Assembly: GCA_024636585.1 (NCBI GenBank)
Contig: JAGXGS010000071.1
Span: 1-64,000, forward strand
DNA from: Thiogranum sp.
Lineage (GTDB): Bacteria > Pseudomonadota > Gammaproteobacteria > DSM-19610
Direction of reading: 5' to 3'
Length of the DNA: 64,000 bases
The notes under the pieces were generated by a model. That model did not search any database and had not been told where the DNA came from. It worked only from the letters and a program-made list of their open reading frames with translations. Below are positions 13,031 to 64,000 of this stretch, one piece after another. Each line of letters opens with the position of its first letter. The stretch's first letter is position 1. The position numbers and the translations under genes are program-made.

Positions 13031-13891
13031 TCAACGCACAGGTCCGGCCTGGTCGCCAACCAGTTCGCGGATTCGATAATGTCCCTCACCTGCCTCGCCC
13101 AGCACGTTGGCGAGATACGGCAGCAGCAGTTCCATTTCATCGCGCAGTCCCCAGGGCGGATTGACCACCAGCATGCCGCAGGCGGTCATGCCATAGCCGC
13201 GGCTATCGCTGCGGATACCGAGTTCAAACAGCTGCACGCGGGGGATGCCGCTGGCGACAACTGACCGCTCCAACACCTCGATACGGTTGCGTTCCACGAC
13301 TGGATACCAGATGGCATAGACACCGGTGGCAAACCGGCGGTGCGCTTTCAGCAAAGTATCCACTACCGCCTGATAGTCAGTCTTGAGTTCATAGGACGGA
13401 TCCATGAGCACCAGTCCGCGACGCTCCAGTGGCGGCATCAGGCCAATACAGCCCTGGAATCCATCACCGGTAGTCACCCTGACGTTCCGCTGACCGGCAA
13501 ACGCCGCCTGCAGCAGGGCGGAATCCGTGGAATGTGCTTCGAACAGGCACAGCCGGTCGTTCTTGCGCAGCAACTGCGCAGCCAGCCACGGCGAACCCGG
13601 ATACCGATGGAGATCATCGGAATCATTGAAAGCACGCACCAGCCTCCGGTAGTCGATCAGCGCCCCCGGCAGGTCATCACGCGTCCATAGCTTCGCAATC
13701 CCGTTGGTGAATTCCAGGGTTTTCTGCGCCTGCGGGTCCTCCAGCAGATAGCCTCCGGCGCCCGCATGGGTATCGATGTAACACAGGGATTTGTCTTTGC
13801 GGGTCAGATAACGCAGCACCCGCACCAGCACCAGATGCTTGAGCACATCGGCGAAATTACCCGCATGAAATGTATGGCGATAACTCAACAT
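13031..13891 (-). CDS. rlmJ: 23S rRNA (adenine(2030)-N6)-methyltransferase RlmJ
   Basis: The 286-residue protein methylates A2030 of 23S rRNA with SAM. The family start MLSYRHTFHAGNFADVLKH is present, followed by YIDTHAGAGGYLL (SAM site), GSPWLAAQLLRKNDRL and the catalytic VLMDPSYELK, a variant of the N6-methylase DPPY motif. GMLVVNPPWGL near the C-terminus is also conserved. E. coli RlmJ is 280 residues. Single gene, convergent with the unknown membrane protein and divergent from the response regulator. Confidence 0.93.
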   Translation of the reverse strand: MLSYRHTFHAGNFADVLKHLVLVRVLRYLTRKDKSLCYIDTHAGAGGYLLEDPQAQKTLEFTNGIAKLWTRDDLPGALIDYRRLVRAFNDSDDLHRYPGSPWLAAQLLRKNDRLCLFEAHSTDSALLQAAFAGQRNVRVTTGDGFQGCIGLMPPLERRGLVLMDPSYELKTDYQAVVDTLLKAHRRFATGVYAIWYPVVERNRIEVLERSVVASGIPRVQLFELGIRSDSRGYGMTACGMLVVNPPWGLRDEMELLLPYLANVLGEAGEGHYRIRELVGDQAGPVR

Positions 13892-14012
13892 GTTGGCAAT
13901 GATAGGGGTAGCAGAGGCTATTTGTCTTTCTTATCAAGAAATTCGGTCCAAAACCGATACGTTTGGCTATTCGGTTTCGAATTCACATGTATTAACGGAA
14001 CAAGCGAATTGT

Positions 14013-15263
14013 ATGGACATGAAAACAGATCCGACCGCCTCGCTTCAATCGACTGAAGCCACAGAAAAACCTACCTTGCTGATCGTTGACGACTCCCGGC
14101 TGATGCGTCACACCCTGAAGAAGATGCTTAACGACGACTTCAATCTGGTGGAAGCCGTAGATGGGGAAGACGGTTGGGAAAAGCTGCTGGCGGAGCCACG
14201 GATCGAAGCTGTGTTCAGCGATTTATCCATGCCGAACCTCGACGGATATGGACTGCTGGAACGTATTCGCAAGGCCGCGGAAGCACGCATCAATATTCTG
14301 CCTTTCATCGTCATTACCGGAAAGGAAGGAGACGATCAATCGCTGCTGGAGGAAGTCAGGAAACATGGCGCCAATGACTTCGTCAGCAAGCCGTTCAAGA
14401 CCGATGACATCATTTCCAAAACCAGGGCATTTCTGACGCGATCCACAGAAACGCCAACAGAGACTCCAGTCGAAATCAGCGACGAGAGTGTTCGGCTGGC
14501 AGCCGAGGAAGACGCGCGCCTTATCGCAGAACAGGCCGAAGCACAGCGTTTGGCCGCCGAAGCCGAAGCTCAGCGTCTGGCCGAAGAAACTGCCCGTCAG
14601 GCCGCCGAGGACGAAGCACGCCGTATCGCCGAACAGGCCGAAGCGCAGCGTTTGGCCGCCGAAGCCGAAGCTCAACGCCTGGCTGAAGAAACTGCCCGTC
14701 AGGCCGCCGAGGAAGAAGCGCAGCGCGTCGCGGAACAGGCCGAAGCCCAGCGTTTAGCCGCCGAAGCCGAAGCTCAACGCCTGGCCGAAGACGCTGCCCG
14801 TCAGGCTGCCGAGGAAGAAGCGCGCCTTATCGCAGAACAGGCCGAAGCGCAGCGTCTAGCCGCCGAAGCCGAGGCTCAACGTCTGGCCGAAGACGCTGCC
14901 CGTCAGGCTGCCGAGGAAGAAGCGCAGCGCGTCGCGGAACAGGCCGAAGCGCAGCGTTTGGCCGCCGAAGCCGAAGCTCAACGCCTGGCTGAAGACGCTG
15001 CCCGTCAGGCTGCCGAGGAAGACGCGCGCCGTATCGCGGAACAGGCCGAAGCCGAAGCCCGGCGTCAGGCCGCTGTAACAGAGGCCCGACGCCAGGTAGA
15101 AGAAGCCGCCCAAAAGGCCGCTATCGAACCTCCTCCTTTCACGCTACTGGAGCGATTCGGCGTGCGTGTTGCACTGCCCTTCATACACATCAGCCATGTT
15201 GTGCTGGACATTCCATCGGATGAACAGTATGCAACCCTGCGCAAGCGCCTGAAGCGGAAGTAA
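14013..15263 (+). CDS. Response regulator with five-copy Ala/Glu-rich coiled-coil repeat
   Basis: The 416-residue protein has an N-terminal receiver domain (about 20-143): acidic pair D26-D27, phosphoacceptor D70 in FSDLSMPNLDG, T102 and K126 in SKPFK. From residue 164 to about 347 it consists of five 34-residue repeats built from AEQAEAQRLAAEAEAQRLAE-type blocks plus a partial sixth, predicted to be one long charged helix like TolA. The last 55 residues are different: a hydrophobic stretch (FGVRVALPFIHISHVVLDI) and a basic end (LRKRLKRK). There is no DNA-binding or enzymatic output domain. ATG 14013 is chosen; the frame is open upstream but runs into rlmJ, and a second ATG is at 14019. No histidine kinase is adjacent. 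The output, perhaps scaffolding or surface attachment, is unknown. Confidence 0.85.
   Translation: MDMKTDPTASLQSTEATEKPTLLIVDDSRLMRHTLKKMLNDDFNLVEAVDGEDGWEKLLAEPRIEAVFSDLSMPNLDGYGLLERIRKAAEARINILPFIVITGKEGDDQSLLEEVRKHGANDFVSKPFKTDDIISKTRAFLTRSTETPTETPVEISDESVRLAAEEDARLIAEQAEAQRLAAEAEAQRLAEETARQAAEDEARRIAEQAEAQRLAAEAEAQRLAEETARQAAEEEAQRVAEQAEAQRLAAEAEAQRLAEDAARQAAEEEARLIAEQAEAQRLAAEAEAQRLAEDAARQAAEEEAQRVAEQAEAQRLAAEAEAQRLAEDAARQAAEEDARRIAEQAEAEARRQAAVTEARRQVEEAAQKAAIEPPPFTLLERFGVRVALPFIHISHVVLDIPSDEQYATLRKRLKRK
14502..15053 (+). repeat. Five tandem 102-bp coding repeats plus a 42-bp partial copy
   Basis: A 102-base unit (34 codons) recurs five times in phase; the marker string TGCCCGTCAG begins at 14591, 14693, 14795, 14897 and 14999. 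Copies differ by scattered substitutions (for example ETARQ versus DAARQ, ARLIAEQ versus AQRVAEQ) but no indels. A partial sixth copy begins at 15012. The unit lies wholly inside the response regulator gene and keeps the reading frame, so copy-number change would alter the protein length without a frameshift. Confidence 0.95.
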
Positions 15264-60063: not shown

Positions 60064-61197
60064 TTACTCCCTGCCGCGCAGACGCGCCAACTGTTGCTGG
60101 ATTGGCGCGATAACCGGCTCTACTTTTTTGCGCATCAAGGAGCCGATAGCGTCGGTTCGGGAGAATATCGGTGTCACCAGGTGATCGCCAGCCCAGGCCA
60201 GTGCGAACAGCGCGCGAACATCGTCGCGGCATTCCGGCAGCGCCTCCAGCACCTGCTGTACGGCTTTGGTAGTAACACAGACAGGTGGCGCATCAAGTAA
60301 TTCTTCGGCATCGCTGATGATAGTGTCCATATCAGCTGCGGCATCCTGACTGGGACAGATACAGCCAAAATAGGCACGAATGGATTTCAGCGCTTGCACT
60401 ACCACATCCTGGTTGGAAGGCCGGGCAAAAACCGTGGCGGCGGTATCGAGATAGACCTGGCCGTTGACGCCGAGGCAGCGGCAGAGTTGTCTGGCCACCG
60501 GGTTGCCGGCAGCCACCAGCGCGTCCAGCGCTGCGACGACCGCAGCGCGATCTTTACGTGCGGCACCCGCTTCCGGCAAGGCATCAGGAAGCGCATCCAT
60601 GAAGCCCACATAGTAGGAATTCTTCCGCTTCGCCGAGCGCCAGAGCTTGTCGCGAACATCCGCTTCGATAAGACCGGGTTGCAACACGAGACGAACCGTC
60701 TCGATCATTGCTGTCGGTTCGGTTTCGAACGGCAGGTACTCGACCAGATGTGCCGCAAGCTCCGGACCCATCGAGCCTTCCACCACCGACTGCTTCTCCA
60801 GCATCCGGCGTGCATTATCGGCCACCGGCATCGCCCACCAGGCTCGCCGAGCCATATCATCACTGAGGCCACTGGCGTAAACCACGGCGACCACTGCTTC
60901 AGGCTCGCCGAGTAGCAACAACTGCTCCAGACTGTCATCGCGCGCCTGCCCCATGCGCGTCCAGCGCCGCAAAAAAATCGGATAGCCCCCGGGCGAACCC
61001 AGCACCTGGCTGGAAAGCAACTCACGGACTTTTTTGAGGTACTGGTCGTCGCGCCCACGCGGATTCAGTTTGACGCTAGCCTCCCCCTTATCGGACAGTG
61101 CATACACAGTCATGGAAGATTCATCGATGCGCACCGCCTGCAACGAGTTCGCCAGTAATACATTCAGACGCAGCGAATCTTCGGCAGACAGTTCCAT
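60064..61197 (-). CDS. dsrS: DsrS-like protein, sulfur metabolism associated
   Basis: The 377-residue soluble protein begins MELSAEDSLRLNVLLANSLQAVRIDESSMTVYALS, continues GSPGGYPIFLRRWTRMGQ, LLLLGEPEAVVAVVYASGL, RRAWWAMPVADNARRMLE and LPFETEPTAMIETVRLVLQPGLIEADVRDKLWR. This matches my memory of DsrS, the last product of the dsr operon of purple sulfur bacteria, whose precise function in sulfur oxidation is unsettled. It has several cysteines (QLCRCLG, FGCICPS, PECRDD). dsrAB, which normally define the pathway, are not in this window. Its ATG overlaps the Sel1 gene stop by one base. Confidence 0.65.
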   Translation of the reverse strand: MELSAEDSLRLNVLLANSLQAVRIDESSMTVYALSDKGEASVKLNPRGRDDQYLKKVRELLSSQVLGSPGGYPIFLRRWTRMGQARDDSLEQLLLLGEPEAVVAVVYASGLSDDMARRAWWAMPVADNARRMLEKQSVVEGSMGPELAAHLVEYLPFETEPTAMIETVRLVLQPGLIEADVRDKLWRSAKRKNSYYVGFMDALPDALPEAGAARKDRAAVVAALDALVAAGNPVARQLCRCLGVNGQVYLDTAATVFARPSNQDVVVQALKSIRAYFGCICPSQDAAADMDTIISDAEELLDAPPVCVTTKAVQQVLEALPECRDDVRALFALAWAGDHLVTPIFSRTDAIGSLMRKKVEPVIAPIQQQLARLRGRE

Positions 61198-61634
61198 CAG
61201 CGCTCGAAGCCCGCCGCGCGGTAGAGTTCATTGGCCTTGTCGAGATCCTTTGGGACACCGATCCCTTCCTCGTACATCATAGCCATGGTCGTCAATGATC
61301 CTACCAGCCCCTGGTCGGCGGCTTTCTGGAACCATTCAAGGGCTTTGGCCGGATCTTTCTCCAGGCATTCTCCTTCGAGATACATGAAGCCCAGGCCGTG
61401 TTGCGCAATCGCATAACCGGAATCAGCTGCCGCCTGCATCCAGCGCACCGCCAGTCCATCGTGCTGGGCAACGCCCAGACCATTCTGGTACATGATAGCG
61501 AGCCGATGCTGGGCCTCCGGATGCCCCTGACTGGCGAACGGTGACAACAGCTGTGCGGCCCGGGAAAAATGTTTGGCCTCAAAGGCAGACATGCCACTGG
61601 CAAGCTCGACGTCCTGATTGTTCATATCTGTCAT
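61197..61634 (-). CDS. Sel1-repeat protein
   Basis: The 145-residue protein consists of an entry helix (GMSAFEAKHFSRAAQLLSPFASQG) and three Sel1-like repeats (AQHRLAIMYQNGLGVAQHD, AQHGLGFMYLEGECLEKDPAKALEWFQKAADQG, SLTTMAMMYEEGIGVPKDLDKANELYRAAG, all in part). Such repeats bind other proteins. No signal peptide, so cytoplasmic. A good GGGAG lies before the ATG. It is the first gene of the operon ending in tpm and overlaps the DsrS-like gene by one base. Confidence 0.88.
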   Translation of the reverse strand: MTDMNNQDVELASGMSAFEAKHFSRAAQLLSPFASQGHPEAQHRLAIMYQNGLGVAQHDGLAVRWMQAAADSGYAIAQHGLGFMYLEGECLEKDPAKALEWFQKAADQGLVGSLTTMAMMYEEGIGVPKDLDKANELYRAAGFER

Positions 61635-61657
61635 CGTTCTCTCCCGGAAAATAGGCC

Positions 61658-61686
61658 ATTATATAGGCTCGTTCTTTCCTGACCAA
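61658..61686 (-). promoter_or_regulatory. Sigma70-type promoter of the Sel1-dsrS-cysG operon
   Basis: The minus strand has TTGGTC (61686-61681), a 17-base spacer and a perfect TATAAT (61663-61658), 24 bases before the first ATG. Predicted leader is about 17 bases and holds the GGGAG ribosome site. Confidence 0.65.
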
Positions 61687-61992
61687 ATAACTCGGGATTT
61701 CGACGGAGTGCCAACCGACACTGCAGTTTCGGACACAGGCTTAATTCCATAGTTTGTAAGCGGGTTTATCTCACTGGGGATATATAGCGAAATACTGATA
61801 TGCCTGTATACTCTCGCGCCATCCCATGGACGCTGGCAATGGTTCAGCACCAGCGAACGGACCGGGTGGTATGAGCCTGTTGCGCTCCCGCCCGCATCGC
61901 CAGAGAACTGCGTAACGCGTGATAACCGGTGATCAGAGGTCGCACTTCTGATTGTTAAAGATTCAAAAACCTTGTCAAAGGAGATCGCAACA
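61687..61992. other. Intergenic region between divergent operons
   Basis: About 306 bases separate the minus-strand operon promoter from the small plus-strand gene. I see no credible gene; the short minus-strand frame at 61659-61850 lacks a ribosome site and homology-like features. Near the right edge ATCAGA (61932-61937) and TCTGAT (61947-61952) form a short stem-loop just upstream of AAAGGAG, which could lie in the leader of the small gene. The plus-strand promoter is not clear. Confidence 0.6.
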
Positions 61993-62190
61993 ATGGATCC
62001 AATGTACTACGACTTTACGACCACCATGGAAAAGGAAGCGGTAAACGACGACTATATCCAGGGCTGGCAAAGTGGCTTTCTGTTGAACCCGCAGCGCGAA
62101 GAGCAGCGTCGTACCGAAGCCTATGAAGCCGGTTACGAAGATGGTAAGGCACGCAATACCGATAACTACAAGGGATGGGTTGGCAAGTAA
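61993..62190 (+). CDS. Small 65-residue protein with repeated GW/GY-x-x-G motifs
   Basis: The protein starts MDPMYYDFTTTMEKEAV and has two similar segments: DDYIQGWQSGFLLNP and RTEAYEAGYEDGKARNTDNYKGW. The (G)W/Y-x-x-G-(F/K) motifs faintly resemble ribosome modulation factor (AHQRGYQAGIAGRS), but the composition is much more acidic and the match is weak. AAGGAG is nine bases upstream. It stands alone between two divergent or convergent units and has its own strong terminator, which suggests an independently expressed, perhaps abundant small protein. Function unknown. Confidence 0.75.
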   Translation: MDPMYYDFTTTMEKEAVNDDYIQGWQSGFLLNPQREEQRRTEAYEAGYEDGKARNTDNYKGWVGK

Positions 62191-62218
62191 ACTCTGGCCA
62201 ACAGCCGCGTAACAAGAA

Positions 62219-62248
62219 AAAACGGGCCAATGGCCCGTTTTCTTTTTT
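62219..62248 (+). terminator. Strong bidirectional rho-independent terminator
   Basis: AAAACGGGCC and GGCCCGTTTT form a ten-pair stem with a three-base loop, followed by CTTTTTT on the plus strand. Upstream A-runs give a U-rich tail on the minus strand too. It lies 28 bases after the small gene stop and 16 bases from the end of the convergent TolA-like gene and probably serves both. Confidence 0.93.
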
Positions 62249-62263
62249 AGCACCTGACAGGTT

Positions 62264-63196
62264 TCAACGGCAGGTTGAGAGGAACTTGGCGGAGGGTCCG
62301 TCACAGGGATTGGATGAGAATTTGCTGTTCATACTGTCGGCTCCGGCGTCAGTTGCAGCGCCTGCTGAATCTTCCTGCGTTGATTGCCCGGCAACTTGCT
62401 CCGGACTCGGCACTGTTTCTCTCAGCCGGCTCTGTTCAGCCTGCAAAGTCTCGGCCGCCAGCGCGCGCTCGCGTTCCGCCTGCAGGGCTTTCTGTTGGGC
62501 TTCGAGCAGTTTCTGTTTTTCCAGTGCGGCGCGACGTTCCAGGGCAGCGCGCTCAAGTCGTTCGCTCGCCATCTTCTGTTCTGTGGCACTGCGTTGCTCT
62601 TCCAGCGCCTGCCGAGCGGCACGCTCACTGGCCAGCTTCTGCTCCGCATCCTGGCGCGCCTGCTCGAGCGCTACACGTTCAGCCTTGAGTTGCTGTTCAA
62701 TGGCCAGGCGTGCCTTTTCAAGCGCAGCACGTTCCTCCGCCAGTTTCTTTTCATCCGCCAGGCGCTGTTTTTCGAGTTCAGCCCGTGCATCGCGCTCTTC
62801 TTTCAGCTGCTGCTCCGCTTCACGGCGCTGCTCGTCATTAAGAGCAGCTTCCTTTTTGGCTGCGAGGAGACTCTCTTCCTTCTGCCGGCGGAGTGCGTCG
62901 AACTGGTCCTGCGCTGCATCCACGGCAGACTGATCATTTGCCTGCTGTTGTGGCGAGGTAGCAACCGGATTGCCTTCAGCAGCTGTCGCGCTTTCTGCCT
63001 GCAGGACTGCTGGCTTCGACGTCCAGATATCCCTGATTAGCCAGAGAGTGCTGCCGGCAAGTACAACGACGCCCACCAGCAACCAGAGCGCGCCTTTATC
63101 TCCCTTGACCTCCTCCACAACCGGGTCGGAATCACCGGCACCTGTTGCTTCAGTCTCGTCAATCTCAGCATGAGTGGAATGGGGTTCGCGTTCCAT
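62264..63196 (-). CDS. TolA-like membrane protein with C-terminal two-cysteine motif
   Basis: The 310-residue protein has an acidic cytoplasmic N-terminus, one membrane helix (about 36-54, GALWLLVGVVVLAGSTLWL), a spacer (60-92) and a long Ala/Glu/Arg/Gln coiled coil (about 93-258) as in TolA. The orientation predicts a periplasmic coiled coil. The last 19 residues form a motif with N296-P-C298-D-G-P-S-A and S-T-C309, the two cysteines ten residues apart. The same motif ends the upstream neighbour. TolA itself has a different globular domain III and lies with tolB/pal, so this is not ordinary TolA. Function unknown. Confidence 0.8.
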   Translation of the reverse strand: MEREPHSTHAEIDETEATGAGDSDPVVEEVKGDKGALWLLVGVVVLAGSTLWLIRDIWTSKPAVLQAESATAAEGNPVATSPQQQANDQSAVDAAQDQFDALRRQKEESLLAAKKEAALNDEQRREAEQQLKEERDARAELEKQRLADEKKLAEERAALEKARLAIEQQLKAERVALEQARQDAEQKLASERAARQALEEQRSATEQKMASERLERAALERRAALEKQKLLEAQQKALQAERERALAAETLQAEQSRLRETVPSPEQVAGQSTQEDSAGAATDAGADSMNSKFSSNPCDGPSAKFLSTCR

Positions 63197-63249
63197 AGTG
63201 GCAATCTTCCATCAAGTCAGCATGTTAGGCATGGACGCGGTTGCCAATA

Positions 63250-63275
63250 CGGCACTCGCTTCCACGCGAGTGCCG
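63250..63275. other. Ten-pair inverted repeat between the two TolA-like genes
   Basis: CGGCACTCGC and GCGAGTGCCG form a perfect ten-base-pair stem with a six-base loop, about 54 bases upstream of the downstream gene's ATG and 89 bases past the upstream gene's stop. There is no following U-run on either strand, so a rho-independent terminator is unlikely; an RNA leader structure or operator is possible. The rest of the 167-base gap (63197-63363) shows no gene. Confidence 0.5.
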
Positions 63276-63363
63276 GTTTAGCGTCCGTCCCTCAATATTC
63301 TTTAAAAGCAGCAGGATAGCTTTATCTGACGATGGATTTTCGGGTGCAGCGCGGCGATCTCAA

Positions 63364-64000
63364 CTACGGTTTCTTCGCAAGGCAGGTGGACATAAACCGC
63401 GCGGAGGGACCTTCGCAGGGGTTGGCCTGGAATCGGGTAGGTTCAGTGGTCACAGCGGGTTCAGGTTCCCCTTTTTCCGGAGCATCGCTGATTTGTGGCT
63501 GAGTCGCCAACGCAGCAGTAGCCGGCGCCTGCTGCACCTGCGCCGGGAATGACGTCGCGTCGCGGTCTGCCGCTGCGCGTTCGGCAGCCAGTCTTTCTGC
63601 CTCGGCTCTTGCTTTCAGCATGCGCTCGTTTTCTATGCGCGCCTTCTGTTCCATCGCCAGTCGCGCTCTTAACTGCTCAGCCAGTCTGCGTTCGGCTTCA
63701 CGGCGCTCGCGCTCCATGCGGGCGACTTCTTCCCTTGCCCTGGCCAGGCGCTCCGATTCGCGTTGCAGTGTGTCATCGCGTACTGGCACCACCTCCACCT
63801 GCTCCTTTATCACCTGTATAGTCACTGCCTGCTGATTTTCCGGTATAACTTCGTCAGGCGACAGTGCAGCCTCTACCGGAACAGGAGCGTGAGCAGGTGC
63901 TTCCATGACTGAAGAAACAGGTCTGGTTTCTTTCAGCTCAGTCGGCTCAGTCGAGGGACGAACAGGTAATCTGACAGGTGGCGACGAGATTGCTGGCGAG
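63364..64000 (-). CDS. Second TolA-like coiled-coil protein, partial
   Basis: The frame is open to the right edge of the window (at least 211 codons), so the start is missing. The visible part has a proline-rich stretch (SPPVRLPVRPSTEPTE), a charged coiled coil (about 105 codons, RESERLARAREEVARMERE and on) and a Pro/Ala/Glu spacer. It ends FQANPCEGPSARFMSTC then LAKKP, a near copy of the C-terminal motif of the next gene with the same ten-residue spacing between cysteines. A membrane anchor would be upstream and is not seen. The two genes are tandem paralogues by their C-termini. Confidence 0.8.
   Translation of the reverse strand, partial: SPAISSPPVRLPVRPSTEPTELKETRPVSSVMEAPAHAPVPVEAALSPDEVIPENQQAVTIQVIKEQVEVVPVRDDTLQRESERLARAREEVARMERERREAERRLAEQLRARLAMEQKARIENERMLKARAEAERLAAERAAADRDATSFPAQVQQAPATAALATQPQISDAPEKGEPEPAVTTEPTRFQANPCEGPSARFMSTCLAKKP

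Follow-up and report, generated by a model that had tools for sequence, protein, structure and literature searches.

Two neighboring genes with a shared C-terminal end

The window analyzed here is a stretch of 64,000 nucleotides (G000:C7:1-64000) that is part of a 117-kb contig. At its right end are two minus-strand genes, A and B (Table 1). The sequence-only reading had noted that the encoded proteins share the end pattern xFxxNPCxGPSAxFxSTC with equal cysteine spacing, and both open reading frames (ORFs) and both tails were confirmed. A terminates in KFSSNPCDGPSAKFLSTCR and B in RFQANPCEGPSARFMSTCLAKKP, each with a C-x10-C motif (C298/C309 in A and C621/C632 in full-length B). The clear N-terminal membrane helix ascribed to one of the proteins is that of A, where it starts at residue 36 with a mean hydropathy of 2.3.

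Table 1. Positions of genes A and B, their parts and the adjacent features in the window
Feature	Position	Strand	Description or evidence
Gene A	62264..63196	-	TM + coiled coil + tail, 310 aa, no AAA domain; ORF
Membrane helix of A, residues 36-54	63035..63091	-	Mean hydropathy of 2.29 across its 19 residues
Charged coiled-coil stalk of A, about residues 95-262	62411..62914	-	Sequence; TIGR02794 sub-cut-off match over the coil
Tail of A with Cys298 and Cys309	62267..62326	-	HMM 3.1e-12; AF2 pLDDT about 85
Gene B, C-terminal third (about residues 427-637)	63364..64000	-	Rest beyond the window, to C7:65277
Tail of B with Cys621 and Cys632 (full-protein numbering)	63382..63441	-	HMM 1.9e-12
Sel1-repeat gene without signal peptide and without tail	61197..61634	-	PF08238; marker of the conserved neighborhood by synteny
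Spacer at the site of c1 and c2 in relatives	61640..62260	.	c1-c2 pair of G000 is on another contig (C14)

When the contig was read rightward past the window edge, as the sequence-only reading had advised, full-length B was found to comprise 637 amino acid residues and to start at C7:65277 (MYDLYYGL...). Its N-terminal AAA_22 ATPase domain (PF13401; 88.5 bits, E 6e-25) is followed by a transmembrane (TM) segment near residue 376, then by a coil and finally by the tail. The AAA domain, the TM and one end of the coil lie outside of the window, and because B is cut by the window edge, its AAA domain and hence its ExeA-type architecture had been missed. With an N-terminal AAA_22 domain followed by one TM, B is of the ExeA/GspA type, while A has no AAA domain. 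Similar to ExeA/GspA, B contains the MYxxFYGLxxxPFxxxPDPxF AAA_22 ATPase, a single TM and a predicted periplasmic C-terminal part. Different from ExeA/GspA, however, B has a coil and the two-cysteine tail in place of a peptidoglycan-binding domain (no PF01471 was found in B by Pfam search), and the recurrent neighbor of the tail genes is a porin gene rather than a secretin gene or gspB. The Pfam search found no SPOR (PF05036) match in A or B. The nearest NCBIfam model was TIGR03015 (XrtA/PEP-CTERM ATPase), whose 270.3 bits were below the cut-off of 324.5.

Both proteins had also been described as TolA-like, which held for the coil and not for TolA membership. A resembles TolA in its N-terminal TM and long charged coil, but it lacks the TolA C-terminal domain and scored 29.3 bits with TIGR02794 (cut-off 59.45; the longer ORF of B was not listed), and membership of A was rejected. 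B differs from TolA in its AAA domain and is ExeA-like.

The TM of A aligned with the TMs of AAA-type orthologs in other members of the genus, with scores reaching 104, while shuffled sequences gave maxima of 40–48. The alignment with the G015 ortholog, KGDKGALWLLVGVVVLAGSTLWLIRD to RGERGALWLLLGVVVMAGGTGWLMRD, scored 104, with a shuffle maximum of 41. No alignment was found between the TM of A and the diverged TM of B. Given that the TM of A is alignable to those of the AAA-type orthologs, A looks like an AAA-less copy of an ExeA-type protein's C-terminal half, so that the duplication proposed earlier for the pair would be a partial one. Among the genus members found, the A/B tandem was present only in G000 and G002. 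Between these two genomes, the tail of A was 85% identical and its remainder 43%; for B, the identities were 73% for the ATPase, 36% for the middle part and 70% for the tail.

Two further observations concern the surroundings. A gene at 13890-15263 (+) of the window encodes a protein that resembles response regulators; it contains a long series of AEAQRLAEETARQAAE-type repeats, and its C-terminus is different and carries no tail. Just past the window, dsrA-, dsrB- and dsrE-like ORFs were recognized by reading translations by eye (L004 12684-15654); they suggest that the organism may be a sulfur oxidizer with reverse Dsr.

Forms, carriers and range of the tail

A scan of 84,980 genomes with the strict pattern NPCxGPxAxFxxTC identified 16 contigs, and on each of the 16 the tail lies at the C-terminus of an encoded protein. 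The tail HMM retrieved both copies of the window's own genome (per-genome E-values of about 7e-14 to 3e-12) and, at E<1e-4, tails in 15 of 369 Gammaproteobacteria genomes from several families. In a 398-genome phylum sample, it found no tail outside the window's own genome. The host range comprises sulfur-oxidizing and related Gammaproteobacteria. A third pattern match in the own genome (on C54) lies antisense to a different ORF and lacks a match to the second cysteine, and was treated as a chance match. Weak HMM matches above about 1e-4 (L078-L084 and L090) had no full motif at the C-terminus and were dropped.

The HMM searches yielded 37 distinct tails, A and B plus 35 more, all of the form F-x-x-[ND]-P-C-x10-C and ending 0–5 residues before the stop. 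We defined the tail family by this form, placed no more than about 5 residues from the stop, and A and B both belong to it. The F, P, C, A and C residues were invariant in the 37 tails, and F/Y, S and T were nearly so. The conserved small domain postulated in the sequence-only reading is thus found well outside the contig and in many families, and in view of this recurrence and of the HMM scores of both copies, the likeness of the ends of A and B is no coincidence. Pfam and PDB sequence searches gave no match covering the tail, and literature searches on the motif found nothing relevant. As the earlier reading had supposed, no known family in the libraries searched is defined by the motif, and the tail of about 18 residues is undescribed there. 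When the last 45 residues of A were modeled with AF2, pLDDT was about 85 in the tail and lower in the residues preceding it, and the stretch from one cysteine to the other contained a short helix; the tail is therefore predicted to fold locally.

The neighborhood and architecture check advised earlier revealed four carrier architectures: AAA-TM-coil (ExeA-type), TM-coil, signal peptide-Sel1-coil (PF08238) and Ser/Thr kinase-TM-coil (PF00069). By their TM or signal peptide, all carriers would place the tail in the periplasm. In one genus, tail genes are situated amid type VI secretion genes, with TssJ and TssK homologs in G119 (L098) and TssF and TssG homologs in G334 (L106), and the G334 carrier is a Ser/Thr kinase.

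A short, strictly C-terminal element on unrelated proteins could also be a sorting or processing signal that is cleaved or modified, similar to PEP-CTERM or GlyGly-CTERM. We consider this very improbable, because the motif is not followed by a hydrophobic helix or a basic stretch, many carriers already have a TM of their own, and no processing enzyme was among the recurrent neighbors. Located where a coil ends, the two invariant cysteines might instead cap it, their interchain bonds locking dimers or trimers or acting as a redox switch, with conservation reflecting oligomerization. This possibility is rather improbable too. F, P, A, F/Y and S are as strongly conserved as the cysteines, the linkers between coil and tail vary greatly in length and composition, and oligomerization alone gives no reason to track a porin, as the tail does (see below).

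ExeA-type paralogs within the genus end in SPOR (G000, L163) or in PG_binding_1 (PF01471; G008, L164). With either domain at the same place, the tail appears to replace a known envelope-binding end. Similar to the tail, SPOR is one periplasmic module shared by different carriers, namely ATPase-SPOR (DamX-like) proteins and SPOR-ended Sel1 or TM-coil proteins, and the L163 protein of the window's own genome is such an AAA-TM-SPOR paralog. SPOR, however, folds as a domain of about 75 residues, whereas the tail is about 18 residues long, contains two cysteines and does not match SPOR in sequence.

The porin c1, the PstS-like c2 and co-occurrence of c1 with the tail

Clustering of flanking genes identified a porin, c1, as the recurrent partner of the tail genes and a second partner, c2, a secreted protein of 140 amino acid residues that matches one PstS lobe. 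PF13609 was above its cut-off in two of the three c1 members tested. The own-genome c1 (C14:19049-20236, 503 bits, in a c1-c2 pair) was modeled by AF2 with a pLDDT of 91 and a pTM of 0.88, and its fold matches general porins; a PDB search with c1 gave no match by sequence, the porins being matched by fold.

At about 20 loci, c1 adjoins the tail gene or is within a few genes or a few kb of it. Gene orders included c1-c2-tail, tail-c1-c2, c1-tail without nearby c2, and convergent arrangements. In G002, G007, G008, G015 and G017, c1-c2 lies between the Sel1 gene and the tail gene(s); in G000, no c1-c2 is present between A and the Sel1 gene. A c2 fragment is located beside the tail gene at a contig end of G016. 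Among the tail genomes of the class scan, c1 was within a few kb of the tail gene in 11 of 15; tail genomes with no c1 that close were G000, G334 and G350. Two side observations were made at these loci: AAA-type and Sel1-type tail genes are convergent, tail to tail, at L095 5411-8223 and L018 307-3353, and in G327 (L094 7223-7225) the Sel1-tail frame is followed, after just one TAA, by a porin ORF in the same frame.

Because c2 adjoins c1 at many tail loci and at all chemoreceptor loci read (see below), and resembles a PstS lobe, the tail might partner c2 or a c1-c2 complex; tail proteins would then stand in for a chemoreceptor within a ligand-sensing unit. This is improbable, given that the tail loci read in G119, G155, G362, G267 and G318 and at L029 lack c2 and have the tail gene directly after c1. 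As c1 adjoins the tail even at loci without c2, the partner that stays constant is c1.

Families that lack tails usually have the c1-c2 homologs beside a methyl-accepting chemotaxis protein gene, as in ten of the loci read, and this set of a porin, a one-lobe PstS-like protein and a chemoreceptor recurs across many gammaproteobacterial families (L146-L148, L150 and L153-L158). The porin and PstS-like genes are homologous and side by side in both settings; the third gene, however, encodes a tail-less chemoreceptor in these sets and a tail protein in the tail lineages. In the porin tree, tail-associated and chemoreceptor-associated porins cluster apart. Thus, c1-c2 looks like a reusable envelope module with a variable third member. 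Literature searches on the porin signature and on the porin/PstS-like/chemoreceptor gene set found nothing relevant.

Among the 369 Gammaproteobacteria genomes, c1 (>380 bits) was found in 16, the tail in 15 and both in 14, an association with a Fisher value of 2e-22 that ignores ancestry and uses a c1 HMM built from tail-gene neighbors. A kinase-type tail occurs without c1 in G334 (79% complete), and c1 occurs without a tail in G041 and G188. In G350, c1 is beside a chemoreceptor gene and the tail is elsewhere in the genome. At five Acidiferrobacterales-like AAA loci (L023-L026 and L032), no c1 was within the 8 kb read.

Of 20 genomes in the window's family, a strong c1 was found in precisely the 11 with the tail, and the remaining 9 lack both, with a weak partial c1 match in tail-less G019. 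Absences generally are weakened by MAG incompleteness, as G004, G006, G013, G019 and G334 are 71–80% complete. Tail-less ATPase orthologs in the same gene order were identified in G014 (483 amino acid residues), G005 (478), G003 (447) and G013, in which the coil stops just short of the expected tail site, and they occur only in genomes without c1. The tree of the ATPase and flanking genes requires about three label changes (2–4 in bootstraps), and joint loss of tail and c1 in the genus may be a single deletion because the genes are adjacent. The co-occurrence within the family is therefore supportive, not proof.

Proposed role of the tail

From these observations, a functional link between the tail and c1 is quite likely. 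The sequence-only reading had offered an outer-membrane or a peptidoglycan partner; the former is the better-supported reading, with c1 as the candidate from neighborhood and co-occurrence. The best reading overall, which we put only just short of an even chance, is that a disulfide-closed tail docks or couples envelope proteins to the c1 porin. The tail would be a short docking module at the C-terminus, exposed to the periplasm and probably closed by a disulfide, the latter being suggested by cysteine spacing, invariance and compartment. Long helical stalks would hold it out from ExeA-type ATPases, their AAA-less copies, secreted Sel1 scaffolds and a membrane kinase, and the stalk tip would most likely be docked by the tail to the c1 outer-membrane porin encoded alongside. 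Such docking could tether or position c1, or couple inner-membrane ATP-driven or signaling proteins to it, and ATP hydrolysis may have a role in this. That the tail docks directly to c1 we put slightly below an even chance.

Several observations speak for docking: a C-x10-C motif that does not vary among 37 distinct proteins of four architectures and lies at their very end, the local AF2 fold of the tail, the proximity of c1 in about 20 loci, the match in presence, the restriction of tail-less ATPase orthologs to genomes without c1, the general-porin fold of c1 and the swap with SPOR or PG_binding_1 in paralogs. A possible precedent is the assembly of the outer-membrane channel ExeD by ExeA-ExeB, in which the periplasmic domain of ExeA helps (PMC4098917).

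The same swap in paralogs fits a tail that works as SPOR or PG_binding_1 do, anchoring its carriers generally in the envelope by way of peptidoglycan, a lipid or lipoprotein of the outer membrane, or some other shared receptor, with the link to c1 reflecting a shared envelope operon. The carriers do different jobs, and tail genes are not beside c1 in G334, G350 and, for the AAA-type genes, G155 and G362. However, peptidoglycan-binding domains are usually larger than about 20 residues, so that the tail is small for one, and a general anchor need not track one porin, while tail presence closely matches c1. We regard a general anchor as unlikely, although not negligibly so. Extending the docking reading, the tail could be a previously unknown, cystine-closed tag that plugs an AAA ATPase, a Ser/Thr kinase and a Sel1 scaffold into one porin family, an energized or regulated porin replacing the pairing with a chemoreceptor; this we hold possible yet doubtful.

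If docking to c1 is right, the tail could be used as a tag to predict from sequence the envelope proteins that are connected to a specific porin, and c1 would exemplify a passive pore linked to an ATPase or kinase of the inner membrane. ExeA-type ATPases swap their periplasmic end among a peptidoglycan-binding domain, SPOR and the two-cysteine tail, perhaps according to the outer-membrane partner. Finally, with the widespread set of porin, PstS-like protein and chemoreceptor, a role in sensing becomes testable.
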